Source: a virus
Virus record (IMG/VR): IMGVR_UViG_3300005253_001114
Span: 1 to 22,772 of that record
Length of the DNA: 22,772 nucleotides
Strand: one strand, 5' to 3'
This document shows positions 359 to 22,646 of this stretch, piece by piece. Below the pieces are notes generated by a model, which did not search any database, had not been told where the DNA came from, and saw only the letters and a list, made by a program, of their open reading frames with translations. How positions within the stretch are numbered: the first letter of the stretch is position 1; each line of letters opens with the position of its first letter. The position numbers were made by a program, and so were the translations under genes.

Positions 359-640
359 ATGACCCAATACGCAAGAGGGGCGGCGTTTGAGAGGAGGGTA
401 TTCAAGTGGTATGAATCCCAAGGCTTTGACTCCATACGCTCTGCTGGCTCTCACGGGGTAGTAGACGTCCTTGCAGTCCTCAATGGCATGTGGATACCCA
501 ATACACTGCGTCTCAGTAACTACTGGTCGCCCGCCGAGAGGGAAGAGTTTGAATCATACTGTAAGCGGAATAAATGTATAGGTAGATATGTCTGGCGGGA
601 TAAGGGTAAAATACAGTTCAAGGAGGCTAAGGATGCCTAG
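359..640 (+). CDS. PD-(D/E)XK nuclease, Holliday junction resolvase (Hjc)-like, 93 aa
   Basis: The N-terminal half reads like an archaeal-type Hjc resolvase. It has a basic start with RGAAFERRV (Glu11 as first acidic residue), then SAGSHGVVDVLAV (residues 28-40) with Asp36 as the metal-binding acid after the conserved Gly-Ser-His-Gly turn. SPAERE at 57-62 is the helix that usually follows the catalytic strand. In the family that strand carries Q/E-x-K, often IQCK. Aligned on SPAERE, this protein shows TLR, so the catalytic Lys would be Arg. The fold is well supported but activity is uncertain. Such enzymes resolve branched DNA during phage replication or before packaging. The family is usually 100-150 aa, so this is a short member. 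The gene overlaps the next by 8 bases. Confidence 0.75.
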   Translation: MTQYARGAAFERRVFKWYESQGFDSIRSAGSHGVVDVLAVLNGMWIPNTLRLSNYWSPAEREEFESYCKRNKCIGRYVWRDKGKIQFKEAKDA

Positions 641-836
641 GAGAAAGTGGTTAATATCAGAGTTACCCGATAAAAGCAGGTGCCCACACTGTCATAAATT
701 AGGTCTAACTGATGACCATAATGAAGAAGGGGATTTGGGTTGTGTATGCTGTGGGGAGAGAGTGTACAAAGTTCCACCCCTGCCCTATATAAGGAGAATT
801 TATACAAAGCAGGGGTGGCGGCCTAGTTTAGTCTAA
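633..836 (+). CDS. Zinc-binding microprotein, 67 aa
   Basis: The start at 633 is chosen because AAGGAGG lies at 620-626, six bases upstream; an in-frame start at 588 has no such site. CPHC near residue 20 and CVCC near residue 40, spaced by an acidic loop, form a four-Cys zinc-ribbon arrangement. The N-terminus (MPRRKW) and C-terminus (YIRRIYTKQGWRP) are basic and aromatic, which would suit nucleic acid or protein binding, but no family is recognised. It overlaps the resolvase-like gene by 8 bases. It also converges with the minus-strand operon, whose last gene ends at 828 inside this one, so the two opposing transcripts overlap at their 3' ends. Confidence 0.75.
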   Translation: MPRRKWLISELPDKSRCPHCHKLGLTDDHNEEGDLGCVCCGERVYKVPPLPYIRRIYTKQGWRPSLV

Positions 837-1121
837 CTCAGCGTCTATTACATAGCTATGCCACAGAACATGGTTGATGTAATCGTAAAACTCCTTAGTC
901 ATCGCAAGCCCGCTTGCCCCACCCTCTATATGCCCTTCCGACCTTAACACAGCCAATACCTTTCTATCATCCCCATTGCAACGAACTGGCTCAATAATCT
1001 GGTTATTCTTCATCACGTGGTCGAGGTAGGGGTAAAGCCTTAATTCTCCTGTCGTAATTTCTCTACCTAGAAACCCCTTAGCGATATCCTGTATTTGTTC
1101 TGTCATTTGTCCTCTAGCCAT
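828..1121 (-). CDS. Hypothetical protein, 97 aa, last gene of the minus-strand operon
   Basis: The start at 1121 follows GGAGGGG with about 5 bases of spacing. No family is recognised. The protein looks like a small alpha/beta domain. A MTEQIQDIAKGFLGREI start is followed by a helix, a RKVLAVLRSEGHIEG segment around residues 53-67 that resembles a winged-helix recognition region, and a C-terminal helix with YDYINHVLWHSY. The winged-helix idea is weak inference. The gene is separated from its upstream neighbour by one base, consistent with operonic coupling. Confidence 0.7.
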   Translation of the reverse strand: MARGQMTEQIQDIAKGFLGREITTGELRLYPYLDHVMKNNQIIEPVRCNGDDRKVLAVLRSEGHIEGGASGLAMTKEFYDYINHVLWHSYVIDAELD

Positions 1122-1122
1122 T

Positions 1123-1272
1123 TTATCCCCTCCTTACCTTAATTACTTTCATTGAATTAAAATCCTCTAATTGCTTACGGTCTCTCAGGTCCGGAAACCC
1201 GCATCCATCTTTTCTCTTAAACTGGCAGTCTTTACAGAATATTATAGGGTCTAAGTATATTGGGCAGTTCAT
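1123..1272 (-). CDS. Cysteine-containing microprotein, 49 aa
   Basis: This gene is below the length usually called. The ATG at 1272 is preceded by GGAGGTAAAT, and its first base is the last base of the upstream gene's TAA (TAATG). It ends at a TAA two bases before the next ATG. The product starts MNCPIYLDPIIFCKDCQFKR and has Cys at 3, 13, 16 and 24, a plausible four-Cys zinc site. The second half is charged and helical. Function is unknown. The ribosome binding site and exact packing between neighbours are the main support. Confidence 0.7.
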   Translation of the reverse strand: MNCPIYLDPIIFCKDCQFKRKDGCGFPDLRDRKQLEDFNSMKVIKVRRG

Positions 1273-1430
1273 TATTTACCTCCGTCTATTTTAGCTAATA
1301 CCTTTATGAGATTATTTAAATCATCTTGAAATACCCATCCGCCTTGCGACTTTATTTCCTTTAACACCTCCCACATCTCCCACTTATTCTCTTCCAGTCT
1401 CTTATCTAGTTCCTGTCCCATTTTAGACAT
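1272..1430 (-). CDS. Small helical protein, 52 aa
   Basis: The start at 1430 (MSKMGQELDKRLEEN) is chosen over an in-frame ATG 30 bases upstream because AAGGAGAAATAAT directly precedes it. The longer version would begin inside the preceding gene without a ribosome binding site. The product is highly charged and predicted helical throughout (EENKWEMWEVLKEIKSQ, then DDLNNLIKVLAKID), so it may act as an oligomer. It has no Cys, membrane segment or known motif. Stop and next start overlap by one base. Confidence 0.72.
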   Translation of the reverse strand: MSKMGQELDKRLEENKWEMWEVLKEIKSQGGWVFQDDLNNLIKVLAKIDGGK

Positions 1431-1431
1431 A

Positions 1432-1581
1432 TTATTTCTCCTTCTTTGTGTTTGTATCACTAAGTGTAAATATTATACTTGCGGTAGCTAACCCTATGAT
1501 GGCGGGTAACACATCACCATTAAGGGAAGCCCAACCACCAAACCCTAGCCACATAAATCCCACTAGCGTTTGATACCACAT
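1432..1581 (-). CDS. Small membrane protein, 49 aa
   Basis: This gene is too short for routine calling. The ATG at 1581 is preceded by AAGGAGGTATAGAT. The product is strongly hydrophobic, with two candidate membrane segments: residues about 2-19 (starting WYQTLVGFMWLGFGGW) and about 25-40 (LPAIIGLATASIIFTL). They are separated by a short polar turn, SLNGD. The tail is charged (SDTNTKKEK). A two-helix hairpin with a basic tail is seen in small phage inner-membrane proteins such as holins and superinfection-exclusion proteins. No lysis gene is adjacent, so neither role can be assigned. It ends one base before the next gene's start. Confidence 0.7.
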   Translation of the reverse strand: MWYQTLVGFMWLGFGGWASLNGDVLPAIIGLATASIIFTLSDTNTKKEK

Positions 1582-1583
1582 AT

Positions 1584-1817
1584 CTATACCTCCTTATCCC
1601 TCAGTATGTCGTTGAGTTGCATCCTAACAACAAAGTCAAGCGTCTCGCTATGTGAGTGTGGCCAATCGCCGTATTCGTCAATTCTACCAGTAATAAAGCC
1701 CTTACCACCGTTATCAGCTTGACATGTTTTATACCCACAGTCAAAGCCGAGGCTAACGTATTTCCTCCGTTCCTCTTCGAGTAATCTATTGTGCTTTCGT
1801 TTTGTGATGAATAACAT
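1584..1817 (-). CDS. Hypothetical protein, 77 aa
   Basis: The start at 1817 follows GAGGAGGTAAATA. The N-terminus is very basic (MLFITKRKHNRLLEEERRKY). The centre has GFDCGYKTC with two Cys, then a Gly-rich turn and a GRIDEYGDWPHSHSE segment containing two His. Cys and His could bind metal, but the spacing matches no family I know. The gene begins inside the 3' end of its upstream neighbour, with a 32-base overlap in another frame. That is unusually long for this operon, but both genes have good ribosome binding sites. Confidence 0.65.
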   Translation of the reverse strand: MLFITKRKHNRLLEEERRKYVSLGFDCGYKTCQADNGGKGFITGRIDEYGDWPHSHSETLDFVVRMQLNDILRDKEV

Positions 1818-1989
1818 TATTTACCTCCTCAAGTTCAGCTTTGACAATGTTTAGACTTTTGATTGCTGCCTCTGAATGAGACAACCGCTCGTCCCACGGC
1901 AGGTTAGGTTTTTCGAGTAGCGTTAAGGCGAAACCCAAACTGTTGCTTGCCCATTTCGCCCATACCTTTGTACCGTATTGATTGGCCAT
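1786..1989 (-). CDS. Hypothetical protein, 67 aa
   Basis: Two consecutive ATG codons lie at 1992 and 1989. The second is preferred because it is 6 rather than 3 bases from AGGAG; the first forms an ATGA overlap with the preceding stop. The product is a single mostly helical domain (MANQYGTKVWAKWASNSLGF then repeated Leu/Ala heptads, SHSEAAIKSLNIVKAELEEV). No family is recognised. Its 3' end overlaps the next gene by 32 bases. Confidence 0.65.
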   Translation of the reverse strand: MANQYGTKVWAKWASNSLGFALTLLEKPNLPWDERLSHSEAAIKSLNIVKAELEEVNNVIHHKTKAQ

Positions 1990-2345
1990 CATTCTCTCCT
2001 ATCTGCCTGGGCTAGTGCCTTGTTAGTAATGTCCTTGAATCTATCTACTCTTTCGCATAATCTTTTTAATTCTGCCCTGCATTGTGCATCTGATAGAGTT
2101 GGAACTACAACTGGTTGTGGATGTATTATTAGAGTCTTCAGTGCCTCATACATAGCAGGGGCAGCAGCTATTAGGTGGGCATTGGCTTCGGCTTCTTCCT
2201 GCGTGCTTCCTTGCGCTTCCGCTACCTGTTCAAGGTCTTCAGTTACGGTAACAAAGGCTCGTCCACCCGTGCGATTGCTGCGGTACGTTGTGTATCTCGA
2301 AAACGCAGAGTCAGTAACCTTCCATTCCCCTTTAGTAAATTCCAT
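1989..2345 (-). CDS. Phage conserved hypothetical (HLIAAAPxMYEAL family), 118 aa
   Basis: The start is fixed by AAGGAGGTGAAGTAAT. The product has the hallmark order of a very common phage family of unknown role. It opens with a KGEWKVTDS N-terminal strand, then a beta-rich stretch (VTVTEDLEQVAEAQG, residues about 32-46). Next comes EANAHLIAAAPAMYEALK (about 54-71), then a C-terminal helix rich in charged residues ending NKALAQA. The family is widespread in tailed phages and prophages, usually in accessory regions, and no biochemical role is established to my knowledge. Family membership rests on pattern memory of the HLIAAAP signature. The TGA overlaps the next ATG. Confidence 0.85.
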   Translation of the reverse strand: MEFTKGEWKVTDSAFSRYTTYRSNRTGGRAFVTVTEDLEQVAEAQGSTQEEAEANAHLIAAAPAMYEALKTLIIHPQPVVVPTLSDAQCRAELKRLCERVDRFKDITNKALAQADRRE

Positions 2346-2346
2346 A

Positions 2347-2508
2347 TTACTTCACCTCCTTATTAACTATCGTTCTCCTTTTACATTTAGGGCATCTCCA
2401 TTGGGGGACATATCTTTTACCGCTCAGTCCAGAGCCAGCATTCCTCATTACAATTATTTCCCCCTTCTTTAAACACTCAGGGCAGTTAGGGAATTCAGGT
2501 ATAATCAT
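2347..2508 (-). CDS. Zinc-ribbon microprotein, 53 aa
   Basis: This gene is too short for routine calling. The ATG at 2508 forms an ATGA overlap with the stop of the upstream gene and is preceded by AGGAGGAGAGAGT. The product has CPEC at residues 9-12 and CPKC at 39-42, a classical two-knuckle zinc ribbon. The knuckles are separated by a beta-hairpin-like stretch, and the tail is basic (KRRTIVNKEVK). Such ribbons commonly bind nucleic acid or partner proteins; the target here is unknown. It ends one base before the start of the HLIAAAP-family gene. Confidence 0.78.
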   Translation of the reverse strand: MIIPEFPNCPECLKKGEIIVMRNAGSGLSGKRYVPQWRCPKCKRRTIVNKEVK

Positions 2509-2699
2509 ACTCTCTCCTCCTCAATAATTCCAGTCAATTGGTAGCAGTCATACCAATACTCATTACAGCTATTGCAGTATACATGCGCTTCAAGCGTGTC
2601 TCCATTTACGGGGTCAGATTCTATGCAGTCAGAACCACAATACGGGCAAGTGTGCGGTGCTTTCAGATAAGCCTTCAATTGCTTAGGTGTTAGTTTCAT
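2505..2699 (-). CDS. Zinc-ribbon protein, 64 aa
   Basis: The start at 2699 is preceded by AAAGGAGGAGAATT. The product begins with a basic helix (MKLTPKQLKAYLKAPHTC). It then has CPYC near residue 18 and a second pair CNSC near residue 42, with an extra Cys in GSDC and another in the tail (YDCYQL). The paired CxxC motifs form a zinc ribbon. No enzyme domain is attached. It is one of several independent zinc microproteins in this operon and sits directly upstream of the other CPEC/CPKC protein, with a 4-base overlap. Confidence 0.78.
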   Translation of the reverse strand: MKLTPKQLKAYLKAPHTCPYCGSDCIESDPVNGDTLEAHVYCNSCNEYWYDCYQLTGIIEEERV

Positions 2700-2727
2700 A
2701 ATTCTCCTCCTTTGGGCTTATAGCCAC

Positions 2728-2874
2728 TTATTTACTGACAAGGTGATATTGTTTCTCGCCTCTTGTGGTGACAATGTATTGGAATCTCCAATGCCATCCG
2801 ACAGTTGCCCTAAAATTCCCGATAATGCGCCTTAGGTATGACGCTGGATAAAGTCCCGCAAATAATAGTACCAT
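2728..2874 (-). CDS. Hypothetical basic protein, 48 aa
   Basis: This gene is short but has a strong AAGGAGGAGAGAGAAA leader before the ATG at 2874. The product begins with a hydrophobic stretch (MVLLFAGLYPASYLRRIIG). It continues with a basic, aromatic region (FRATVGWHWRFQYIVTTRG) and ends HLVSK. The first 20 residues could insert in or lie on a membrane, but the stretch is short and broken by Arg-Arg. No family is recognised. Confidence 0.6.
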   Translation of the reverse strand: MVLLFAGLYPASYLRRIIGNFRATVGWHWRFQYIVTTRGEKQYHLVSK

Positions 2875-2892
2875 TTTCTCTCTCCTCCTTAT

Positions 2893-3027
2893 TTAGTCCA
2901 CTATAACTGGATATTCTTTACTGGTGCACTTTGGACACTTTGGCTGCTTAGTTGTGTCTATGACCCATGACCAATAAAGCTCACACGCCTTGCATTTCAG
3001 TGTAACTGTTTTCATGTCTCCTCCCAT
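2893..3027 (-). CDS. Zinc-ribbon microprotein, 44 aa
   Basis: This gene is too short for routine calling. Two starts are plausible: ATG 3027 (seven bases after AAAGGAG) and ATG 3015 (after GGGAGGAGAC), giving 44 or 40 aa. The product carries CKAC and CPKC about 16 residues apart, forming a minimal rubredoxin-like or zinc-ribbon fold with a Trp-rich beta-hairpin between them (LYWSWVID). It resembles stand-alone zinc ribbons from many phages. The biological target is unknown. Confidence 0.75.
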   Translation of the reverse strand: MGGDMKTVTLKCKACELYWSWVIDTTKQPKCPKCTSKEYPVIVD

Positions 3028-3080
3028 TTTCCTTCTCCTTTAACCTATCATCTTCAGTATCAGGTGGTTAATCCTGACAG

Positions 3081-3099
3081 ACGGGGATTAGCTCCCCGT
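3081..3099. other. Intergenic stem-loop
   Basis: ACGGGGA (3081-3087) pairs with TCCCCGT (3093-3099) across a 5-base loop, giving a 7-bp GC-rich stem in the 77-base gap between two minus-strand genes. It is not followed by a T-run in either direction. An RNA processing or attenuation element is therefore likelier than a classical terminator; this is inference. Confidence 0.5.
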
Positions 3100-3104
3100 T
3101 TCGA

Positions 3105-3260
3105 CTAATCGTAATAAGTGTAGTTATCGCATTGCTTATTCTTTCCCTTAGGTGTATACATCGAGCCACTTTTACATTCTATCGATACCCATAGACAATT
3201 CACACATCCGAAATCCCCTGTTTTAGCTTCCAGTGGTACTTCTTTGGTTTTAGTAGTCAT
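3105..3260 (-). CDS. Cysteine-containing microprotein, 51 aa
   Basis: This gene is too short for routine calling. The ATG at 3260 is preceded by AGGAGGTAAGGAT, nearly identical to the leader of the gene upstream. The product has Cys at 19, 22, 29 and 44 (GCVNC and two later single Cys), a likely four-Cys zinc site. A Lys-rich N-terminus precedes it and an acidic-aromatic tail follows (NYTYYD). No family is recognised. Downstream lies a 77-base gap holding a GC-rich hairpin. Confidence 0.68.
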   Translation of the reverse strand: MTTKTKEVPLEAKTGDFGCVNCLWVSIECKSGSMYTPKGKNKQCDNYTYYD

Positions 3261-3286
3261 ATCCTTACCTCCTATTTATTCTTAGT

Positions 3287-3529
3287 CTATTGCCGGCTTG
3301 GCAGTCGTTGCATTATTCTAGGTTCGTAGCCGATTTGTTTTAGTTCCTTGAGTAAGTCTGCGTACTCTTCGGGTGTGGCGAGTGAGGTTGATGAGACAAT
3401 CCCTGGCATTCCCTCACCGTGCTGGCCGACATGCTCATACATATCAACCATTCCTGGATTTGCCACATTGTCAGGCAGTAGTGCGATTATATCCCCGTTA
3501 GGCCATTTTCTGAAAATAACTCTATCCAT
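3287..3529 (-). CDS. Phage conserved hypothetical (VIFRK...GDIIAL...HVGQHG family), 80 aa
   Basis: The start at 3529 is preceded by GGAGGTAAGGAT. A longer in-frame start at 3562 would lie in the -10 region of the promoter and cannot be on the transcript. The product matches a family often seen in phages, plasmids and accessory regions: DRVIFRKWPNGDIIALLP at the N-terminus, a central MYEHVGQHGEG, then TPEEYADLLKELKQIGY as a C-terminal helix. The function of that family is unknown to me. It is the first gene of the minus-strand operon, and therefore probably the best expressed and earliest. Confidence 0.85.
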   Translation of the reverse strand: MDRVIFRKWPNGDIIALLPDNVANPGMVDMYEHVGQHGEGMPGIVSSTSLATPEEYADLLKELKQIGYEPRIMQRLPSRQ

Positions 3530-3544
3530 ATCCTTACCTCCAAT

Positions 3545-3603
3545 TACTTCATTCCCCATCACTATATACTAAAAGACTTGACTTGTCAATAGCAAATGAA
3601 GTA
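3545..3603. repeat. 9-bp inverted repeat flanking the minus-strand promoter
   Basis: TACTTCATT at 3545-3553 and its exact reverse complement AATGAAGTA at 3595-3603 sit on either side of the -35/-10 region of the minus-strand promoter, with a 41-bp gap. A flanking pair like this could be two half-sites for a DNA-bending or looping regulator, or coincidence in an AT-rich region. Confidence 0.45.
3561..3589 (-). promoter_or_regulatory. Sigma70-type promoter of the minus-strand operon with a candidate operator
   Basis: Read on the minus strand, a perfect -35 (TTGACA, 3589-3584) and a near-consensus -10 (TATAGT, 3566-3561) are separated by exactly 17 bp. This is the best promoter in the window and would start transcription just ahead of the 3529 gene. 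The -35 is the left part of the palindrome TTGACAAGTCAA, a plausible repressor operator. A host-like sigma70 promoter without phage-specific features fits early, host-polymerase-driven expression of the operon (inference). Confidence 0.85.
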
Positions 3604-4151
3604 TTTATGATATTTATTTTTGAGATAGTTCACTCAGGCGTGGTGGTATGATATGGGGTGATTAGTGAGGTATAAAGACGCACTGTACTCAATATCTGAG
3701 GGTTTTAAGAAGAGTTGTGTAGATTAGTATTAAGTGGTTGTGGCTTGAGACTTTCATCGTCTTAGAGAGTAGTGAGGAATAGGAGAGACGGGTAAGGCTG
3801 TATTCAGCCGTGTATCATCGCCTTGATGGCGTACCGAGGTATCAACTAGGTAGTAGTATAAGACACTGGGGGGTGGGGAGGGGTGTTAGGTTTTTAGCCT
3901 GTTGATTGGTAAGTATAGGTGGTTAACTAGTAGTGGTTGAATCCCCCGCACATGAAATAGCCAGTAAACAAGAGTAAATGAGAGTAAATAGCTTAACGTA
4001 ATACATATAGTGCGCCCCTAGCTAGTCTTGATTAGTATCAGATATCTGTAACTGCATGTGCGAAGCCTTATATTAGGGCTATTGCGCGATTGATTGATTT
4101 AACCCACTCACAACGCTATCTAAAATAGGATTTAAGGGTATTATGTAAATA
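3604..4151. other. Gene-free divergent intergenic region
   Basis: About 550 bases lack any credible reading frame and separate the minus-strand operon from the + strand genes. Contents seen by eye: a 7-bp stem-loop at 3745-3765; GGCTG/CAGCC hairpin at 3796-3809; CGCC/GGCG hairpin at 3819-3831; a block of G-runs at 3868-3883 (6, 4 and 4 Gs split by single bases); three 10-bp direct repeats at 3963-3992; and palindromes CTAGCTAG (4018-4025) and CAGATATCTG (4039-4048). It lies about 1.4 kb upstream of the terminase genes. Candidate roles are replication origin, packaging site, or a structured non-coding RNA; none is proven. Confidence 0.6.
3963..3992. repeat. Three tandem 10-bp direct repeats (iteron-like)
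   Basis: AGTAAACAAG, AGTAAATGAG and AGTAAATAGC follow one another with a period of exactly 10 bp, sharing AGTAAA. The spacing places each copy on the same face of the helix, as in iterons or operator arrays. The repeats lie in the AT-rich half of the gene-free region, close to two short palindromes. Confidence 0.55.
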
Positions 4152-4160
4152 TGGTATAAT
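4152..4160 (+). promoter_or_regulatory. Extended -10 promoter for the rightward genes
   Basis: TGGTATAAT matches the extended -10 form TGnTATAAT perfectly. No good -35 is visible 17 bp upstream, which is typical of extended -10 promoters. Transcription would begin around 4167, giving a very short leader that starts with the AAAGGAGG ribosome binding site of the 4180 gene. Confidence 0.75.
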
Positions 4161-4179
4161 ACGAGTAAAGGAGGAGAAG

Positions 4180-4482
4180 ATGGAGGAGAAACAGAAGGAA
4201 CAGGCGAGACTACGGAAACAGAGACAGCGTGACAAAGAACAACAGAAAAGCGTGACATCTAACACCGTGACATTGGATAGCGTGACATTACTTAACAGAC
4301 CCAATGGAGTACCGTATAACCCCAATGGAATATGGGAAGGGCAGTTCCGGTATGTCGGCCCATTCACTGATGGCCCGGCATTAAACAGAAAGACATTCCC
4401 ACTACCTTACTTCAATCCTAAAGTAGGTGGGTTTACACCTAATAAGATAAAGGGCACTATTAACCCTAGTGTAATCCATTGA
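4180..4482 (+). CDS. Basic coiled/disordered phage protein with VT repeats, 100 aa
   Basis: The start is set by AAAGGAGG at 4167-4174. The first 23 residues are extremely charged and helical (MEEKQKEQARLRKQRQRDKE), suited to nucleic acid binding. A short repeat follows in which SVT, TVT and SVT recur; at DNA level GTGACAT appears three times at 15- to 18-base steps. The C-terminal half is Pro/Asn/Gly-rich (NRPNGVPYNPNGIWEG, YVGPFTDG). Similar basic-helix plus VT-repeat proteins are common near phage replication and packaging genes, but I know no established role. The repeat may expand or contract by slippage. Confidence 0.75.
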   Translation: MEEKQKEQARLRKQRQRDKEQQKSVTSNTVTLDSVTLLNRPNGVPYNPNGIWEGQFRYVGPFTDGPALNRKTFPLPYFNPKVGGFTPNKIKGTINPSVIH

Positions 4483-14889: not shown

Positions 14890-16377
14890 GTGTGTGAGAA
14901 ACCTGAACTACTTATCACTGTATGTTCGCATAGAACATTAGCTGCCCCCACTGCTGGTTCTTTTGACCAATTACGCTTCTCAGGTATTCCCTGGTTGCAG
15001 AAGCTTGTAGTTGGCGACGCCCTCATTTCTCGCTCACGCAGTGCAGCCTGCACTCATTTCCTCGAAGATGAACTACAACTCCCTTATATGCTTTTCATTG
15101 ATGATGACATCACATTCACCCCTCAAGATGTAGGAACAATCCTTACCCACCTGAAAAACGGCTATGACATTATAGGCGGTATCTACGCTGTCAGGGGTGC
15201 TTCGCAACTATCTTCTTATGGATTCAACGGTAGACTTGATGTAGATGGTAAGATACATGAAATCGAATATCTATCTACGGGTTTCATGGGTATATCCCGC
15301 CGTGCCTTAGAGAAGATAAAGGCAGAGTTAAAATTACCCGAACTCAACAAGAACGACTGGTCTCGTAATTTCCCATTCTTTGAATGTGGACGATGCCTGA
15401 ATCTCGCTGATTTTGCTGATACGTTGGGTGATATGTTCAAAACACCCCCTTCTGATAAATTCCTCAAACGCTGGCTTAAATTCTCAGGTTTCCGTGTGAG
15501 GGAGAAGGGTGATTCCATCTACATTTCCGAGGATTGGGATTTCTGTGATAAGGCTAGATTATGTGGTATTAAAATCTACGCTGATACCTCTGTTCAAGTA
15601 GGTCACATGAGGGAGCAGATATTCACGCCTGAGAATGTCTTGGGCGTTCAGCAACAACAGTGGAGAGAGAAGACTGTACACGGTGCTCAAACTAATCAAA
15701 GAAATCTCATGCAGAAGATTGACGAAGACCTGTCTGAGTTTCTCGCTCAACCAGTTAACAAAATCCGAGAGCAGATGAATACTGCACAGAAAGACTTAGC
15801 CAAACTATGGGATAACGCTGAGGCGCTTCTCAAATATCCTCCTGGAGAGAAGTTCTACGATTGTAACCAAACTTACTTGTTCGACCTCGCCTTGTTTAAC
15901 CAGCAAGAAGATTACTTCAGAAATAGATTAGGTCAATTGGTTAATATCTCAAAACTAAAGATACTCGATATAGGCTGTGGTATAGGGACGACCGCCTTTA
16001 TGATGGCTGAACAAGGCAATGACGTGACAGGATGGGATATAAACGAAGACTGCATAGATTTCTGTAACTTCAAGAAGGATAAGTATAAGTTGGGTGGTAC
16101 GTTCACTATTGAGAAGCCAGACTTTAGTGAGTTTGATTTCATCATAGCGGTTGATACATTGGAACATATAAAAGACTTAAAGGGGTTCTTGAAAGACCTT
16201 GGGACGAATATGAAGTATGGGGCTAAATTCTACCACTCCGATTTCTTCCCCAAGGAGAATGCGTGGCCGATGCACTACGAAGAACACGCTAAATCGTTAG
16301 ACAAGTGGCTGGAACAAGCAGGTTTGATTAAGTGGGATGAAAGGTGGGCAATTTCGGATAGGGATAAAAATGAGTAA
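14890..16377 (+). CDS. Glycosyltransferase-methyltransferase fusion, 495 aa
   Basis: Residues 1-260 look like a GT-A glycosyltransferase of the type common in phages: LLITVCSHR at the start, MLFIDDDITF (about 67-76) with the metal-binding DDD at 71-73, a GFMGISRRAL segment (131-140), an acidic SEDWDFC motif (213-219) as the likely catalytic region, and His239 in VGHM. Residues about 260-345 are a helical linker. From about 355 a class I SAM methyltransferase follows: motif I LDIGCGIGTTAF (359-370), acidic Asp383 ending beta-2 (GWDIN), and DTLEHI (422-427). Fusion of a sugar transferase and a methylase suggests adding or capping a methylated sugar. Start GTG 14890 is forced, as an in-frame TAA lies at 14884. 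There is no ribosome binding site, so it looks leaderless. Confidence 0.85.
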   Translation: MCEKPELLITVCSHRTLAAPTAGSFDQLRFSGIPWLQKLVVGDALISRSRSAACTHFLEDELQLPYMLFIDDDITFTPQDVGTILTHLKNGYDIIGGIYAVRGASQLSSYGFNGRLDVDGKIHEIEYLSTGFMGISRRALEKIKAELKLPELNKNDWSRNFPFFECGRCLNLADFADTLGDMFKTPPSDKFLKRWLKFSGFRVREKGDSIYISEDWDFCDKARLCGIKIYADTSVQVGHMREQIFTPENVLGVQQQQWREKTVHGAQTNQRNLMQKIDEDLSEFLAQPVNKIREQMNTAQKDLAKLWDNAEALLKYPPGEKFYDCNQTYLFDLALFNQQEDYFRNRLGQLVNISKLKILDIGCGIGTTAFMMAEQGNDVTGWDINEDCIDFCNFKKDKYKLGGTFTIEKPDFSEFDFIIAVDTLEHIKDLKGFLKDLGTNMKYGAKFYHSDFFPKENAWPMHYEEHAKSLDKWLEQAGLIKWDERWAISDRDKNE

Positions 16378-16789
16378 TCAGATATATAAGTATAGTAAAG
16401 GGAGTAAATGCCCTAGATGGGGATGCGGGAAGCCTATAATGAATGGGTCTGCATTTTGTATGACTCATCGTTGGATAGGTAACAAACGTAAACATACCCC
16501 TCGTTTAGAAAAGAATTTATATTGGCAGACATTGTTATATTCAGATGACCCATTTTATCCAATGGCTTCAAAGAGAGGATATGTATACGTGCATAGATTG
16601 GTGATGGCTAAAGAAGTGGGTAGATGTTTGACTAAAGATGAAATAGTACATCATCTCAATGGTATAAGAACTGATAATAGAAAGGAGAATTTAGTTATTA
16701 TTACAGAGCGAAGCCACGATACAAGGAGTTTTATTAAAAGTTTACAGGCTCGTATTAGAGAATTAGAAAGATGGTGTATTCGTGGATAA
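16370..16789 (+). CDS. HNH endonuclease with N-terminal zinc knuckle, 139 aa
   Basis: An N-terminal Cys/His cluster (Cys14, Cys19, Cys30, His33) forms a zinc-binding knuckle. An HNH domain follows: YVHRLVMAKEVGR (His75), then DEIVHHLNGIRTDNRKENL (about 90-108) with the catalytic His pair and the two Asn residues, and a late His116. The C-terminus is a charged helix (FIKSLQARIRELERW). This is the arrangement of phage freestanding HNH nucleases, several of which behave as homing enzymes. The start 16370 overlaps the previous gene by 8 bases with only a weak AGGG upstream; an in-frame ATG at 16337 lacks any site. By eye the gene is more AT-rich than its neighbours, suggesting a later arrival. 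Confidence 0.88.
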   Translation: MSNQIYKYSKGSKCPRWGCGKPIMNGSAFCMTHRWIGNKRKHTPRLEKNLYWQTLLYSDDPFYPMASKRGYVYVHRLVMAKEVGRCLTKDEIVHHLNGIRTDNRKENLVIITERSHDTRSFIKSLQARIRELERWCIRG

Positions 16790-16796
16790 GGGGGAT

Positions 16797-17069
16797 ATGA
16801 CTAAGCAAGGAGAGATAAGGGAAGGGATAGAGTTAATATTGGACAATCTCATTGAGGGTAACAAGATACGAATGAGCACCAGCAACATGGTAGGCTTATA
16901 CAGGGAAAAGCTTGTTTCTTATCTTAAATCTCAAGGTGTAGTCCTCAAGGTATACAGAGAAATGCCATACATTAATCGTGGACGCAATAAGGGGCAAAAT
17001 GAAGCTCAATTAGATATGAGAGATAGGATGCTCAAGGCAGGCTTTACCGCAACTGAGGATTTGATATGA
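16797..17069 (+). CDS. Phage-type hypothetical protein, 90 aa
   Basis: ATG 16797 is chosen for AAGGGGGAT directly upstream; an in-frame GTG at 16782 overlaps the HNH gene without such a site. The product is mainly helical (MTKQGEIREGIELILDNLIE), followed by EKLVSYLKSQGVVLKVYREM and a C-terminal RDRMLKAGFTATEDL. The hydrophobic-helix then basic-strand pattern resembles small phage proteins of unknown role. Nothing links it to sugar chemistry, so it and the HNH gene may have arrived together. It couples to the next gene by ATGA. Confidence 0.7.
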   Translation: MTKQGEIREGIELILDNLIEGNKIRMSTSNMVGLYREKLVSYLKSQGVVLKVYREMPYINRGRNKGQNEAQLDMRDRMLKAGFTATEDLI

Positions 17070-17872
17070 ACAAACTAGACATTATAATGGCAACGCACAA
17101 CAATCTAGGTATGACCATACGGGCTGTATCAGCGTTGTATGAGAATACTAATGTAGATTTCAGGTTAACGGTAGTAGATGACTCCGTAGATATGACACCT
17201 GATTACTTCCGCCAACTTCAACGCCGTGTGAGCAACCTTCAATATATCAGACCCTTTGATGAGTCTTATGAGGTTATACCTCGCAAGGTAACTCACGGCA
17301 ACCAGATAATCAATATCGGGCTAAAGCACACCACAAGTCCTCACGTGGTATATATGGGGAACAGTACCATAGTAGAGCCGAACTGGTTGAATATGGCTCT
17401 AGCCTTAATACAGCAGAATGAGAATTTAGGATTAGTGGGATTCAAGCTCCTGAAACCAACAGGAGTGATAGAACATGCGGGGATTTACTTTGCTGAAGGA
17501 GCACCCCATCATATGAATCGAGGTGTGGGTGAGTCTTCTCATAGTCTAACTCTAATAGATGATGTGGACGGACATAAGTTAGTAGGGTGGGCTTTAGTTC
17601 TTATCAGGAGAAAAGCCATACCGAGAAAAGGGCTAGAGGAAGGGTATTATCATGGCTTCAGAGGTTATGATGATTTAGATAATTGTCGGCAGATGGTTAA
17701 AAACGGATGGGATATAGCCTACTGCGGGTTTGGTGTTGCCACACATTATGCTTTAGCAACCAGAGGGGAGTATAACGAGAAGGTAGCCAAAGAGTATGAA
17801 GAGAACAGGGTCAGATTTATTAAACGCTGGGGAGAGGTGAAGAAGGATGCGAGTCCTCCTAATTGCGTATGA
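17066..17872 (+). CDS. Glycosyltransferase family 2 (GT-A), 268 aa
   Basis: The N-terminal Rossmann-like half carries LDIIMATHNNLGMTIRAV (4-21) and VVDDS (36-40), the usual nucleotide-binding strand ends. The place where the family has a DxD metal site reads VVYMGNSTIVEPNW (94-107), with Asn-Ser instead of Asp-Asp. The later part has GWALVLIRRKAIPRKG and GFRGYDDLDNCRQMVKNGWD (198-217). The latter matches the acidic motif before the C-terminal helix, which holds the catalytic base, and His227 follows. Absence of DxD suggests altered metal dependence, or that the acidic cluster at 201-205 compensates. Length is typical for a soluble GT2. The start overlaps the previous stop (ATGA); the last 26 bases overlap the radical SAM gene. 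Confidence 0.85.
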   Translation: MNKLDIIMATHNNLGMTIRAVSALYENTNVDFRLTVVDDSVDMTPDYFRQLQRRVSNLQYIRPFDESYEVIPRKVTHGNQIINIGLKHTTSPHVVYMGNSTIVEPNWLNMALALIQQNENLGLVGFKLLKPTGVIEHAGIYFAEGAPHHMNRGVGESSHSLTLIDDVDGHKLVGWALVLIRRKAIPRKGLEEGYYHGFRGYDDLDNCRQMVKNGWDIAYCGFGVATHYALATRGEYNEKVAKEYEENRVRFIKRWGEVKKDASPPNCV

Positions 17873-19118
17873 TAACGGGATGTACATCAACTACTTCCCT
17901 TTAGGGTTGGCTTATGTAGCCTCTAAGCTAAGGGATGAGGGTAATGATGTTGAAATATATAACCAGGATGTATTTCATTATCCAGAGAGCCATCTCACGC
18001 AGTATCTTACAGATAATCATTATGATGTTGTGGGTGTGGGTATGTGTGCAGGTTATTATCAATGGGATAAACTCTGGCATATTTATGGGGCGATAAATAA
18101 GTCAAGAGATTATTTAAAGACAAGGCTATGGCTTGGTGGGCATTTAGTTTCACCCGAACCCAAGTTTTTTGAAGAACGGATGCTAGGAGTCGATGTATTC
18201 ACTGGTGAATATGATTATAAGGAGAACGTAGATGAAATTAGCGAACCTGCTTGGGATTTATTCCCGATTGACTACTACTCTCTTATTAGGTTCCCTCATT
18301 CCACTAATAGCGACCGCTGTTTTGTTGTGCTATCTGGTCGTGGCTGCCCCTATAAATGTAATTTCTGCTATCGTATGTCGAAGGGTTATCGCCCTAGAAG
18401 TGCACGTGGACTTACAGAAGAAATATGTAAAATTACCAAAGACTATCATATCAATTACATCGAGTTCGCAGACGAACTCTTCATGGTCTCTCCTGAAAGG
18501 ACGATGGAGTTATGCGAAGCTCTGAAACCCCTTAAAATAAAGTGGAATTGTAGTGGAAGATTAAACATAGCCAAGCCTAAAGTATTAAAGGCTATGAAGG
18601 ACTCAGGGTGTGTCTTTATCAATTACGGGATAGAGTCAGTGGATGATGGAGTCCTTGAAAGGATGAATAAACAACTCACTGTGAAGCAAATCATATCGGG
18701 GGTTGAAGCGACTCTTGAGGCGGGTATATCACCTGGATTGAATATGATGTGGGGGAATATTGGGGATACCGTCCATACACTTCGTAAGGCAGAACACTTC
18801 CTGCTCAAGTATGATGACCATACGCAGATGAGGACTATCAGACCAGTAACTCCCTATCCTGGGTGCGATTTGTACTACGAAGCTATTAAGCAAGGAAAGT
18901 TAAAGGATGTAGCCGACTTCTATGAAAAGCACATGAACTCGGACTTACTAACGGTGAACTTCACGGATATTCCAGATGAGGAATTCCATAGACAGCTATA
19001 CAAAGCTAATAAATTACTAATCTCGGAGTATTACTATCAGGAAAGAACGTCCACTTACAAACGGGCTAAGGCTTTATATGCGGGCGATACATTCTTCAGG
19101 GGGTTTAGACAGACATGA
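17847..19118 (+). CDS. B12-binding-type radical SAM enzyme, 423 aa
   Basis: The N-terminal 150 residues form a cobalamin-binding-like Rossmann fold: MRVLLIAYDN, PLGLAYVASKLRDEGNDVEI (18-37), DVVGVGM (60-66) and LWLGGHL (94-100). I do not see the DxHxxG motif for base-off B12, which many members of this group lack. The radical SAM core begins with CFVVLSGRGCPYKCNFCYR, where Cys167, Cys171 and Cys174 form CxxxCxxC for the 4Fe-4S cluster. IEFADELFMVSPERTMELC (205-223) and FINYGIESV are typical later strands. Members make C-methylations, ring changes or rearrangements on sugars, lipids and peptides; the substrate here is unknown. Placement suggests action on the sugar precursor or glycan. Confidence 0.9.
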   Translation: MRVLLIAYDNGMYINYFPLGLAYVASKLRDEGNDVEIYNQDVFHYPESHLTQYLTDNHYDVVGVGMCAGYYQWDKLWHIYGAINKSRDYLKTRLWLGGHLVSPEPKFFEERMLGVDVFTGEYDYKENVDEISEPAWDLFPIDYYSLIRFPHSTNSDRCFVVLSGRGCPYKCNFCYRMSKGYRPRSARGLTEEICKITKDYHINYIEFADELFMVSPERTMELCEALKPLKIKWNCSGRLNIAKPKVLKAMKDSGCVFINYGIESVDDGVLERMNKQLTVKQIISGVEATLEAGISPGLNMMWGNIGDTVHTLRKAEHFLLKYDDHTQMRTIRPVTPYPGCDLYYEAIKQGKLKDVADFYEKHMNSDLLTVNFTDIPDEEFHRQLYKANKLLISEYYYQERTSTYKRAKALYAGDTFFRGFRQT

Positions 19119-19825
19119 GGAATCCGTTCATTATAGCCGAGATTGGGATAAACCACAACGGTGACTTAGATATCGCCAAACAGTTAATTGATATGGCTGT
19201 AAGGTGTGATTGTGATGCGGTGAAGTTTCAGAAGCGGACTATTGATTTATGTTACTCCAAAGAGTTTCTAGACTCTCCCCGTGAAAGCCCATGGGGTACG
19301 ACTCAAAGGCAACAGAAGGAGGGATTGGAATTCAGTAGGGCAGAATATGATGAGATAGATAAGTATTGTAAGGGAAAGATAGACTGGTTTGCTTCTGTAT
19401 GGGATGTAGGTGCGAGAGAGTTTATGAACCAGTACGATGTGAAGTATAATAAGATACCCCATCAATTATGGTATGATACTGAGTTGCGAAAAGTTAGGGC
19501 AAATGGGAGACATACATTTATCTCTATGACAGTGCCTATGGAATCTGAGCCAAACATAACTATTATGCTAACAAGCGGAAAATACCCTTGCCCTGATGAT
19601 GAGTGCCATTTAAGTTTGATAAGAAAAGGCATGGGATTTAGTTGCCACAACCCATCAATACTTGTTCCCGCTTTAGCAGTGGCTTTGGGGGCTGAGGTGA
19701 TAGAAGTCCATATCACATTAGATAGAACTTCATACGGGAGTGACCAATCAGCCTCGTTTGAAGAAGAGGGGTTACGGAGAGTGGTTAGAGATTGCAGGCG
19801 GGTAAAGGAGATATTGGGTGTTTAA
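19115..19825 (+). CDS. NeuB/SpsE-like sialic acid synthase lacking the SAF domain, 236 aa
   Basis: NeuB enzymes join phosphoenolpyruvate to a 6-carbon amino sugar to make a 9-carbon acid. Family motifs seen: IIAEIGINHNGDLDIAK (6-22, Glu9), DAVKFQKRTIDL (34-45), SPRESPWGTT (54-63), WFASVWD (91-97), GFSCHNPS (174-181) and EVHITLDRTSYGSDQSAS (197-214). The two metal-binding histidines fall at 178 and 199. Differences from the family are notable. ISTGM is replaced by ISMTVPM, and the KIxS loop reads KIPHQLW. The C-terminal SAF antifreeze-like domain, which closes the neighbouring active site in ordinary ~345-aa enzymes, is absent because the gene stops after EILGV. It is a divergent family member, so the substrate may differ. 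The start overlaps the previous stop (ATGA). Confidence 0.88.
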   Translation: MRNPFIIAEIGINHNGDLDIAKQLIDMAVRCDCDAVKFQKRTIDLCYSKEFLDSPRESPWGTTQRQQKEGLEFSRAEYDEIDKYCKGKIDWFASVWDVGAREFMNQYDVKYNKIPHQLWYDTELRKVRANGRHTFISMTVPMESEPNITIMLTSGKYPCPDDECHLSLIRKGMGFSCHNPSILVPALAVALGAEVIEVHITLDRTSYGSDQSASFEEEGLRRVVRDCRRVKEILGV

Positions 19826-19979
19826 GTGTCCATTGTGTAAGCATCCCTATAATAAGCCAGCCATAACTAAGACAGATAGTGGCTATTTAATATGTGGGCA
19901 CTTTTCCTTTCACATGTGGGATACACATGGCATCCCGCCTGAATATTTATCTGAGTGGGTAATGAGGTTTCTAAAATGA
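19818..19979 (+). CDS. Zinc-finger-like microprotein, 53 aa
   Basis: This gene is too short for routine calling. The start is GTG at 19818, seven bases after AAAGGAG (19804-19810), overlapping the end of the synthase gene by 8 bases; the stop overlaps the next ATG (ATGA). The product begins FKCPLCKHPYNKPAI and has CGHFSFHMWDTHG near residues 26-38. Cys4, Cys7, Cys26 and His28 form a likely zinc site. The C-terminus is WVMRFLK. Lying exactly between synthase and CMP-transferase, it may be a structural partner or an unrelated passenger. No homologue is recalled. Confidence 0.75.
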   Translation: MFKCPLCKHPYNKPAITKTDSGYLICGHFSFHMWDTHGIPPEYLSEWVMRFLK

Positions 19980-20563
19980 TAGTAGCACTGATACCAGCTA
20001 GAAGTGGAAGTAAAAGAGTTAAGGATAAGAACATCCGCCCGTTAGGAGGGTATCCCTTAATGGCGTGGAGTATAGCGTGTGCAAAAATATGTGGTCTTGA
20101 AACTTATGTATCGTCAGAATCTATTAAGTATTTAGGTATAGCGGAGAAATATGGGGCACTTGCACATTTACGAACATCGGGTTACTCAGATAGCGCAAAG
20201 GATATTGCAGTTATATCTGAATTTATTGAGTGTGTTTCCTGTCACGATATAGTGTACCTGCGTCCTACAACCCCGCTTAGAGACTCTACGTTTATAAGGC
20301 TTGCCCTACAGGCTTACTCGAATCACAGGGTACACTATATATCACTTTGCAAAATGCGTGATGGTGATTTTTATAGAAACACTGGCTACTGTGAGATATT
20401 CCCTTTCAATGCGTTTGGCAAGGATGAGACGGGTATTATACAAGATTATGAAGTAGGCGAAATAGACACCGAAGAAGACTTTGATTATATAGAGTGGAGG
20501 CTTACAAAATATGGCTCACCAATCCTCGACTACCTCAAAGCAAATTATCCGAACCCTGAATAA
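19976..20563 (+). CDS. NeuA-like CMP-sugar synthetase (acylneuraminate cytidylyltransferase), 195 aa
   Basis: It activates a 2-keto-3-deoxy sugar acid with CTP, giving a CMP-sugar for glycosyltransferases. Visible motifs: the CTP-binding loop IPARSGSKRVKDKNIRPLGG (6-25), the substrate strand VSSES (45-49), VYLRPTTPLRD (93-103) equivalent to the family's QPTSPLR, and the acidic DTEEDFDYIE (164-173) that holds the metal-binding end. The start ATG 19976 overlaps the preceding stop (ATGA); an in-frame GTG 21 bases upstream is unnecessary. It is shorter than typical NeuA (about 220-230 aa), lacking part of the middle. Pairing with the NeuB-like gene makes a nonulosonic acid product the natural reading. 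Confidence 0.87.
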   Translation: MIVALIPARSGSKRVKDKNIRPLGGYPLMAWSIACAKICGLETYVSSESIKYLGIAEKYGALAHLRTSGYSDSAKDIAVISEFIECVSCHDIVYLRPTTPLRDSTFIRLALQAYSNHRVHYISLCKMRDGDFYRNTGYCEIFPFNAFGKDETGIIQDYEVGEIDTEEDFDYIEWRLTKYGSPILDYLKANYPNPE

Positions 20564-21596
20564 ATACGAACCCCGAAGTCTACACCATGAAGTTGATGTA
20601 GTGTGGAAGGATGCCTTCGGTTGTACTGTGACGGATGCAGAAGGGGAAGAATATATCGACTTTACATCTGGTATCTTTGTAGCGAATGTAGGGCATGCAC
20701 ATCCTCAGGTTTTGGATGCTATAGAGTATCAGTTAAATAAACGATTACTTCACTCCTACGTCTTCCCTACGGAGATACGTGCTAAGTTAGTTAGAAAACT
20801 ATGTGAGATGACGGGGTTTGAGAAATGTTATTTATGTTCTACTGGTAGTGAAGCGGTAGAAGCAACGATAAGGATAATAAAAGCATCCCGCACTGGCTCT
20901 GTTTTTCAGTTACCCGATGAATTTCACGGCAGCACGTGGGGAGCAAAACATCTCGAAGTCTTAGGTCAGTCCCCTAAACTCAAGGCGGGGATTATTGTAG
21001 AGGGTTATCGTGGTTATGATGCTCATTTCTATGATAAGGAAGTTATTGCGGAGTTAGAGTCCCTACAGGATGAAGATGTATTACTATGTTTTGACGAGAT
21101 ACAATCAGGCTTCGGTAGAACAGGGAAGTTATTTGCTTATGAACATTATGGTGTGAAACCTGACTTAATCGTTATCGGTAAAGGACTGGGTGGTGGTATG
21201 CCCATCTCGGCTGTATTGGGAAGTGTGCAACTTCTCGATGCCCCTGACGACCTCACATCAACTCACACTGGTAATCCCATCTGTTGCGCTGCTGCGTTGG
21301 CGAGTATTAAAGTTTTGGAAGACGAAAAACTTGTGGAGCGAGCCGAGAGGATGGGTGGGTGGCTTGAGGGAGTGTTACGCCTTAACTTCCCTAAACACCA
21401 GATACGGGGTAAAGGGATGGTATGGGCACTAGATGTAGATGACACAGATGAGATAGTCGATAAGTGTGCTGAAAAGGGATTGCTCTTAATCAAGACTCAT
21501 AGAGGGACGATTAAAATCGGCCCACCATTAACTATCTCACAAGAAACCTTATCCGAAGGATTAACGATATTAAGGGATGTTATAAATGAAACTTAG
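20511..21596 (+). CDS. Class III PLP-dependent aminotransferase, 361 aa
   Basis: It belongs to the ornithine/GABA/glutamate-semialdehyde aminotransferase group. Markers: YIDFTSGIFVANVGHAHPQV (48-67), LCSTGSEAVEATIRI (108-122) for the cofactor phosphate, EFHGSTWG (137-144), CFDEIQSGFGRTG (193-205) with the Asp that holds the pyridine nitrogen, VIGKGLGGGMPISA (221-234) where Lys224 forms the Schiff base, and THTGNP (251-256). Length is slightly short. Class III enzymes usually act on terminal amino or semialdehyde groups. In a sugar operon it could aminate a keto-sugar, but the donor and acceptor are not readable. GGAGG lies 10 bases before the ATG; it overlaps the cytidylyltransferase gene by 53 bases. 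Confidence 0.92.
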   Translation: MAHQSSTTSKQIIRTLNKYEPRSLHHEVDVVWKDAFGCTVTDAEGEEYIDFTSGIFVANVGHAHPQVLDAIEYQLNKRLLHSYVFPTEIRAKLVRKLCEMTGFEKCYLCSTGSEAVEATIRIIKASRTGSVFQLPDEFHGSTWGAKHLEVLGQSPKLKAGIIVEGYRGYDAHFYDKEVIAELESLQDEDVLLCFDEIQSGFGRTGKLFAYEHYGVKPDLIVIGKGLGGGMPISAVLGSVQLLDAPDDLTSTHTGNPICCAAALASIKVLEDEKLVERAERMGGWLEGVLRLNFPKHQIRGKGMVWALDVDDTDEIVDKCAEKGLLLIKTHRGTIKIGPPLTISQETLSEGLTILRDVINET

Positions 21597-21828
21597 ACAC
21601 GTAGGGTATCCAGTGAACGATATGAAGAAGCACGTTACCTTCTGGAAGAGTAAGGGGGCGAGGATAATCTATGAAGCTACGGAACAGATACAGGTTATAA
21701 AGTTTGATAACGGGATAGAGTTGATTAAATATCTGGGAAACGGCAAGGTAGACCAGCCCCATGTAGCCTTTACTTTAGACCCAGACGAGAATATAATAGA
21801 ATTAGTGGAGGATTATAATGTGGAATAA
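21586..21828 (+). CDS. Compact VOC (glyoxalase-like) protein, 80 aa
   Basis: The sequence keeps the order of the metal ligands of VOC proteins: His5 (LRHVGYPV), Glu45 (GIELIKY), His59 (QPHVAFTL) and Glu72 (ENIIELVED). Usually each VOC domain has two paired modules of about 55-60 residues. Here the second has lost the helix and strands between its first strand and the DPDENIIELVE end, so His59 and Glu72 are only 13 apart. The N-terminal module is complete. Likely a metal-binding fold reduced by an internal deletion, possibly active as a dimer or a remnant. It overlaps the aminotransferase by 11 bases and has a weak AAGGGATGTTATAA leader. Confidence 0.75.
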   Translation: MKLRHVGYPVNDMKKHVTFWKSKGARIIYEATEQIQVIKFDNGIELIKYLGNGKVDQPHVAFTLDPDENIIELVEDYNVE

Positions 21829-21979
21829 CAGTGATGTAGCAGATTTAATACAATTGTTGAGGGAGATACGTGATGAGCTTAAACGGCTTAACGACAATCA
21901 ATGCAGAATTGACATCGAGGTGCCTCAAGAATTGTTGGATGTGCGGAAGAAGGAAATTGGTAAATCCCGTATGGGGTGA
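21818..21979 (+). CDS. Putative 53-aa peptide overlapping the SPASM gene
   Basis: GGAGG six bases upstream makes the ATG at 21818 the better-placed start in this stretch. The first 25 residues (MWNNSDVADLIQLLREIRDE and on) form a clear amphipathic helix like small phage coiled-coil proteins. The second half overlaps the radical SAM gene by 107 bases in another frame, so its sequence is constrained by that gene. It may be a real short protein with an overlapping tail, or a leader whose translation delivers ribosomes to the next start. Support is the ribosome binding site and the helix. Confidence 0.5.
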   Translation: MWNNSDVADLIQLLREIRDELKRLNDNQCRIDIEVPQELLDVRKKEIGKSRMG

Positions 21980-22646
21980 TATGGATTATGAGTTGGTTAA
22001 AAGTATCGCTAAGCAAATCCCCGCAGGAATTGTGGTTCAGTTTCACGATAACGGCGAACCATTACTTTACCCTAATCTTGGGAAAGCATTATCTCTTTTC
22101 TCAAATCAGATTAGGTGCTTGGACACGAATGGCAAATTGCTTATTGAGAAATCGGAGGAAATCATTGATAATTTGGACACAATCACAGTCTCCGTCTTCG
22201 AGAACGACCCCGAAGCAGACGAACAATGGATGATAATGAAAAAGTTTATGAGTATAAAAGGAGATAGGAAACCACGCGTCATAGCCAGGTGCCTCGGTAA
22301 AGTTAATTTAAGCAACTATTACGCAGTAGCCGATATAGTCGTAACGAGGACACTCCATAATCCAATGGGGAGTTTTGGTTATAAGAAGAATGTTACTATA
22401 CCAGAGATAGGGATTTGTTTAGATACTTTAAGCCACTTAGCGATTAAACGGGATGGTAAAGTTTCAATGTGTGTCAGGTTTGACCCCAAAGGACTGGGGA
22501 CGATAGGAGACATCACCAGAGACACCCTGAGCGATATCTGGGGTGGTAGTATAAGGAGTGAGTATCTAGCACTGCATATAGCGGGAAAGAGGTCTGAAAT
22601 ACCGCTATGTAGTAAATGTGATTATTGGGGGTGTCCTACTGGTTGA
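21873..22646 (+). CDS. Radical SAM enzyme with SPASM-type C-terminus, 257 aa
   Basis: The radical SAM cluster motif is CLKNCWMC (Cys17, Cys21, Cys24), followed by HDNGEPLLYPNLGKAL (58-73), where GEP is the usual SAM-binding glycine turn, and LDTNG (83-87). The C-terminal region holds further Cys (182, 200, 246, 249, 254) in ICLDTLSHLAIKRDGKVSMC and LCSKCDYWGCP, with DTLSDIWGG between. This is the SPASM/twitch arrangement binding auxiliary Fe-S clusters. Such enzymes act on peptides, aminoglycosides and sugars (dehydrogenation, epimerisation, crosslinking). It is short for the class (usually 320-450 aa). The ATG at 21873 is chosen over GTG 21870 for better spacing from GGGAG. The transketolase frame begins within its 3' end. 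Confidence 0.9.
   Translation: MSLNGLTTINAELTSRCLKNCWMCGRRKLVNPVWGDMDYELVKSIAKQIPAGIVVQFHDNGEPLLYPNLGKALSLFSNQIRCLDTNGKLLIEKSEEIIDNLDTITVSVFENDPEADEQWMIMKKFMSIKGDRKPRVIARCLGKVNLSNYYAVADIVVTRTLHNPMGSFGYKKNVTIPEIGICLDTLSHLAIKRDGKVSMCVRFDPKGLGTIGDITRDTLSDIWGGSIRSEYLALHIAGKRSEIPLCSKCDYWGCPTG

Follow-up and report, generated by a model that had tools for sequence, protein, structure and literature searches.

A type II hammerhead ribozyme motif in the microprotein operon of an uncultured tailed phage

A leftward operon with a predicted ribozyme in its only large gap

The DNA analyzed here (the window) is a virus record of IMG/VR, 22,772 bases long, from an uncultured tailed phage. It carries a leftward accessory operon of 13 microprotein genes (g1-g13), and the gap between g2 and g3 holds a pseudoknotted type II hammerhead ribozyme that most likely splits the messenger RNA (mRNA) of the operon in two. 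The genes, the promoter, the core and stems of the ribozyme, the possible pseudoknot and a syntenic ribozyme in a relative were all computed directly; from these we infer cleavage, early timing and an effect on expression.

The type II hammerhead (RF02276; 3039..3106, minus strand) was the only Rfam RNA in the window, with a score of 34.3 bits and an E-value of 0.0013 when the whole window is searched and 2e-4 when only the region is. The match has the orientation of the operon mRNA only and lies in the one large gap, where an earlier note on this DNA overlooked it. The catalytic core is complete (GAAA at 3102-3099, GUC at 3082-3080 and CUGAAGA at 3057-3051), and the predicted cut falls between 3080 and 3079. 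Stem III (ACGGGGA/UCCCCGU) and stem I (UGUCAGG/CCUGAUA) are 7 base pairs (bp) each, both closed by a loop and both present in the minimum-free-energy (MFE) fold. Furthermore, loop I (UUAACC) could pair with the 3' tail (GGUUAA, 3045-3040) as a 6-bp pseudoknot abutting the Shine-Dalgarno sequence (SD) of g3. Among Markov-simulated windows, a like motif with stems of at least 6 bp arose in 0/3000, and with stems of at least 5 bp in 7/3000.

A second hammerhead was found in a related phage, L006 (7474-7404, minus strand), at the equivalent promoter-proximal place, where it overlaps the end of a CxxC gene of 50 amino acids (aa). The L006 pseudoknot (UUGAC with GUCAG) differs in sequence from that of the window, yet is still complementary.

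Type II hammerheads between small phage genes

Stems were verified for 189 motifs, located on 102 locus-strands, from a pattern scan of IMG/VR; the search pattern biases this survey, and all its figures here and below hold among the matches listed. The stop of a called gene lay between -15 and +5 relative to the core start for 73% of the motifs (4.3% of random positions), a gene start 10-45 nucleotides (nt) after the core for 57% (8.5% of random positions), and both were in place for 41% (0.7% of random positions; n=189 in each case). The start came a median of 29 nt after the core, the flanking genes had a median length of 91.5 aa, and the stop-to-start gap (median 88 nt) was barely longer than the ribozyme itself. 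Pseudoknots of at least 5 bp could form in 43%, as compared with 18% after loops and tails were swapped between ribozymes, and in some operons a series of four to ten ribozymes follow one another (L126, L034, L042, L064 and L071). These data suggest that the typical place of a type II hammerhead is the gap from stop to start between two small phage genes, with up to ten such gaps filled consecutively.

The stop overlapped the 5' strand of the ribozyme in 48%, against 33% under a null that is uniform in the gap; strong selection for stop-codon overlap was dropped as an explanation, the excess being only modest. The longest array, that of L126, has ten type II hammerheads on one strand; each separates small genes, most of them 57-105 aa long, and has a stop at its edge and a start 16-21 nt after its core. 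L034, L042, L064, L071 and L047 contain six to nine each, likewise in small-gene runs.

The 13 genes and their promoter

All 13 minus-strand open reading frames (ORFs) of 44-118 aa that the earlier note had described were found between 3529 and 828. At a plausible spacing, 13/13 starts are preceded by 5-9 nt that match the SD, and the match is at least 6 nt long at 12/13, whereas among the other minus-strand ATGs of the window a match of at least 6 nt precedes 0/259 and one of 5 nt precedes 9/259. By a codon-usage score trained on the structural and large genes of the window, the coding frame was the best of six in 13/13 ORFs, the weakest being g4 (-0.10 versus -0.11 for the next frame). The intergenic gaps range from -32 to +28 nt, except for the 77 nt between g2 and g3 that hold the ribozyme. 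By every sequence test available g1-g13 are genes, and the strong ribosome binding sites and short gaps or overlaps ascribed to them are borne out. Small genes are even more numerous than had been counted: not five but seven of them (g2, g3, g4, g6, g10, g11 and g12) are under 54 aa.

A single strong promoter had also been proposed ahead of the operon, and a sigma-70-type promoter, TTGACA-17-TATAGT, does lie there (3561..3589, minus strand), matching 11/12 consensus positions 31 nt ahead of the g1 start. Thus the locus has the features of a phage early accessory operon, i.e., co-directional small genes with SDs, a host-type promoter and a position set apart from the late genes. The SDs, the codon usage, the conserved promoter and the syntenic operons of seven relatives speak for an operon of early type whose microproteins are genuine and for the most part unassigned. 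The earlier interpretation as a whole is partly supported.

Conserved slot and exchanged genes in related phages

Single-sequence terminase and portal queries against IMG/VR found nothing; relatives were found by a capsid-protein scan and terminase alignments. In 7/7 relatives with sequence there (L002/L003, L005, L006, L010, L012, L145 and L146; terminase identity 36-55%), small genes with strong SDs form a run upstream of the terminase, pointing leftward. The products are often cysteine (Cys)-rich; for example, 5/8 in L003 have at least three Cys. A TTGACA-17-TATNNT promoter precedes the first gene by 27 nt in L003 (with hexamers identical to those of the window), 30 nt in L010 and 34 nt in L012, while the corresponding promoter of L005 and L006 is weaker or elsewhere.

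On the other hand, g1-g13 had no significant homologue in the relatives or in any of the fetched loci. Only g2 resembled, in its N-terminal part (11/22, pairwise E 9e-4), the L006 gene that precedes the ribozyme there. Conservation of the small frames, which had been put forward as a check on their reality, was thus absent among the terminase relatives, while g1, g13 and, weakly, g5 had homologues in unrelated cultured phages. As judged from these comparisons, the slot, its architecture and its promoter are kept between related phages, and the gene content is nearly all exchanged.

Reading of the relatives' sequences also revealed a rare common cargo, i.e., homologous small zinc proteins in the leftward operons of L006 (4923-4720) and L012 (2825-2622), with the patterns ECPYC...ECHHC and LCPYC...ECPHC. 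Small-operon proteins with short internal repeats (SAHVEARG..., WADYAKAR...) are encoded at 620-1306 of L006 and 309-851 of L005, and are possibly fast-evolving repeat proteins.

Proposed course of transcript cleavage

We propose that host sigma-70 RNA polymerase transcribes the operon from its one promoter, probably early in infection and in divergence from the packaging and structural operon, which runs rightward. The products would be 13 microproteins, several of them small and metal-binding (CxxC), with rapid turnover between related phages. Stem III, stem I and the pseudoknot would form as the RNA is made, and the RNA would then cut itself after the GUC at 3080. The upstream product would be a g1-g2 mRNA whose 3' end is a strong hairpin bearing a cyclic phosphate, and the downstream product a g3-g13 mRNA with a 5'-OH, a hairpin at its start and the g3 SD ~40 nt further on; hairpins would thereby protect both new ends. 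Because the two segments could differ in stability and translation rate, one promoter could give two dosages without a host RNase.

A bolder extension, which we consider a long shot, is that in phage small-gene operons the type II hammerheads cut mRNA under the control of translation: a ribosome that terminates at the preceding stop, within the 5' strand of the ribozyme, would delay folding, the pseudoknot beside the downstream SD would link cutting to initiation, and each ribozyme would set dosage without host factors.

Alternative explanations

Several observations weigh against cleavage of the transcript. The score of the motif falls short of the RF02276 gathering score of 37 bits, although this is a curation threshold and no structural feature; stem II is short (GAU/GUC, 3 bp with one G-U pair, plus a bulged U); the MFE energy is ordinary (z -1.45); and hammerheads were not found in the remaining relatives, their presence in 2/8 related phages implying that the ribozyme is not essential to this type of operon. 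The low score, the wobble and bulge of stem II and the absence from 6/8 relatives would equally suit a decayed or accidental relic that does not cut, the operon being translated from a single uncut mRNA. We find such a relic unlikely, however: the core nucleotides are all intact, both closed stems have 7 bp, a perfect 6-bp pseudoknot is available, L006 retains an intact hammerhead in the equivalent position whose stems and pseudoknot differ in sequence, and comparable bulged variants of stem II occur in other surveyed ribozymes (e.g., L025). Less probable still is that the ribozyme serves mainly as a translational switch, in which ribosomes at the g2 stop would block folding, and cleavage and access to the g3 SD would report the level of g2 translation. 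The geometry is suggestive, since the g2 stop (TAG, 3107-3105) overlaps the 5' end of the ribozyme and GGUUAA touches the g3 SD, as are the frequent stop overlap and the short distance from core to start in the survey; but that overlap exceeds its null only modestly, and may merely reflect compact genomes.

The earlier note had instead pointed to host takeover and anti-defence, and the operon could be mainly an island of such genes in which the ribozyme is incidental. Its position, promoter, small genes and fast turnover suit early accessory genes, and g5 weakly matches the Lar restriction-alleviation family (TIGR03655; E 0.011). That match, however, reaches 16 bits against a cut-off of 39.6; it is a generic zinc-ribbon match, and we do not take it to place g5 in the family. 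No confident anti-defence or host-takeover match for any of the microproteins came from PADLOC, NCBIfam, Pfam or PHROGs, but only weak zinc-ribbon matches to g5 and g2 (those in PADLOC being limited to the zinc part of defence profiles, and likewise discounted for g5), and the families of g1, g7 and g13 are without a known role. Anti-defence roles are thus possible but unsupported, and we regard the island explanation as doubtful, though a stronger contender than the relic or the switch. Cleavage of the operon mRNA by the hammerhead is the reading that we prefer.

Features of the individual genes

All genes of the operon are on the minus strand. Homologues of g1 (80 aa, 3287..3529; SD GGAGGT) were found in Marinobacter phage PS6 (51%, 2e-14) and Burkholderia phage BcepSaruman (46%, 4e-11), and homologues of the last gene, g13 (97 aa, 828..1121; SD AAGGAGG), in six phages, namely Pseudomonas phage Itty13 (48%, 7e-24) and five others. 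Both sets sit inside runs of small hypothetical genes, in cultured phages unrelated to the window. The 118-aa product of g7 (1989..2345; SD AAGGAGGTG) belongs to phrog_1273, a family of unknown function whose profile it matches over residues 1-73 (PHROGs E 6.4e-13). The notion that two of the genes belong to widespread phage families therefore holds for g7, the only convincing PHROG match, while g1 and g13 have phage homologues and no named family.

At least five genes had been credited with four-Cys patterns, and at least four Cys were indeed found in g2, g3, g5, g6 and g12. These are not zinc knuckles, as had been supposed, for CX2CX4HX4C occurs in 0/13 proteins. In the CxxC...CxxC, ribbon-like group are g3 (44 aa, 2893..3027, CX2CX15CX2C; SD AAGGAG adjoining the pseudoknot), which could also start at an ATG at 3015 to give 40 aa; g5 (64 aa, 2505..2699), a zinc ribbon with six Cys that matches Zn_ribbon_PaaD at 2.7e-5, under its cut-off, and has a weak homologue in a Flavobacterium phage (2e-4); and g6 (53 aa, 2347..2508, CX2CX26CX2C; SD AGGAGG). 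Zinc-ribbon profiles matched g3 and g6 weakly. Other four-Cys patterns are found in g2 (51 aa, 3105..3260, CX2CX6CX14C; SD AGGAGGT), the gene whose stop overlaps the ribozyme, and in g12 (49 aa, 1123..1272, C-9-C-2-C-7-C; SD GGAGGT). By their Cys spacing, the Cys-bearing genes encode small zinc-ribbon or other CxxC proteins, the zinc knuckle being excluded.

Among the remaining genes, g4 (48 aa, 2728..2874; SD AAGGAGG) is the least certain, with a coding score barely above that of the next frame, and g11 (52 aa, 1272..1430; SD AAGGAG) has the top coding score of the 13. No relative was found for g8 (68 aa, 1786..1992; SD AGGAG), where the coding frame is the best of six, or for g9 (77 aa, 1584..1817; SD AGGAGGT), for which tblastn was empty. 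The suggested two-helix membrane protein would be g10 (49 aa, 1432..1581; SD AAGGAGGT), which reads, by inspection only, as a protein with two hydrophobic segments. PDB searches with g13 and g5 were empty.

Genomic setting

The right part of the window reads as a tailed-phage late region, with genes for a large terminase (T4-like), a portal-like protein and the capsid, followed by sugar-related genes. No close DNA-level relative of the window was found in the phage collection, no relative in genome_contigs, and no transfer RNAs in the window. The region 3' of the capsid gene (14890-22646) is a sugar or modification cassette encoding a glycosyltransferase-methyltransferase, a glycosyltransferase, a B12-radical SAM protein and a NeuB-like synthase, then a cytidylyltransferase, a class III aminotransferase and a second radical-SAM-like protein; the NeuB/CMP-transferase pair suggests synthesis of a sialic-acid-like sugar by the phage.

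At the left end, a 93-aa protein (359-640, plus strand) matches the archaeal Holliday junction resolvase Hjc at 22.2 bits, barely above the Pfam cut-off of 21.1. The last 9 bases of the rightward gene 588-836 (828-836) overlap the end of the microprotein operon, tail to tail and with no terminator in between, so the two transcripts probably overlap. Between the divergent operons, ~640 bases (3540-4180) are without a convincing gene and show a strong skew of G over C (0.28); an origin or packaging site could be located here. A structured RNA in the non-coding part at 3640-4160 was rejected (z -0.08).

Comparison with known systems

This kind of ribozyme is already known from phages, and the window provides a new, well-placed case with a conserved context. 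In prophages, single genes or short blocks have type II hammerheads at their flanks, and transcript processing was proposed for clustered ones (Perreault et al. 2011, PMC3088659). Shortening of the pseudoknot slows cleavage (PMC3088659), and in vitro the cleavage of a pseudoknotted hammerhead is fast, at 16 per min (PMC11300833). The ribozyme of the window resembles the RF02276 hammerheads (PMC3088659) in its closed stems I and III, open stem II, CUGANGA/GAAA/GUC core, loop I to 3'-tail pseudoknot and site between phage genes. It differs from them in scoring under the Rfam gathering score with a weak stem II, and in being a single copy, unlike the clusters of up to ten in L126, L034 or L042. 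A review noted that such ribozymes in phages and prophages adjoin small non-conserved ORFs and that their role in phages is open (PMC6155905); the neighbours in the window likewise encode small, poorly conserved proteins of unknown function, but here with a complete operon and its promoter, synteny across eight genomes and a stop/start geometry. Pseudomonas phages Itty13 and tabernarius, Marinobacter phage PS6 and Burkholderia phage BcepSaruman also have g13 or g1 homologues in small-gene runs, but with otherwise different gene content and no hammerhead in the stretches examined.

The locus offers a small, self-contained test of the role of phage hammerheads: it has a single ribozyme, a single promoter and 13 genes, and in one relative a ribozyme occupies the equivalent place. 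The operon also indicates that architecture and promoter can stay conserved though nearly every microprotein is replaced, and the survey hints at a general rule by which type II hammerheads occupy stop-to-start gaps between small genes.

In phage T7, RNase III cuts the early polycistronic mRNA between cistrons, which sets mRNA ends and stability. The window is alike in its predicted intercistronic cut of a probably early phage transcript. In contrast to T7, the RNA would cut itself and need no host enzyme, and would leave 2',3'-cyclic phosphate and 5'-OH ends. If cleavage were shown, phages would have a host-independent route to cutting polycistronic mRNA, with an effect comparable to that of RNase III on T7 early RNA.

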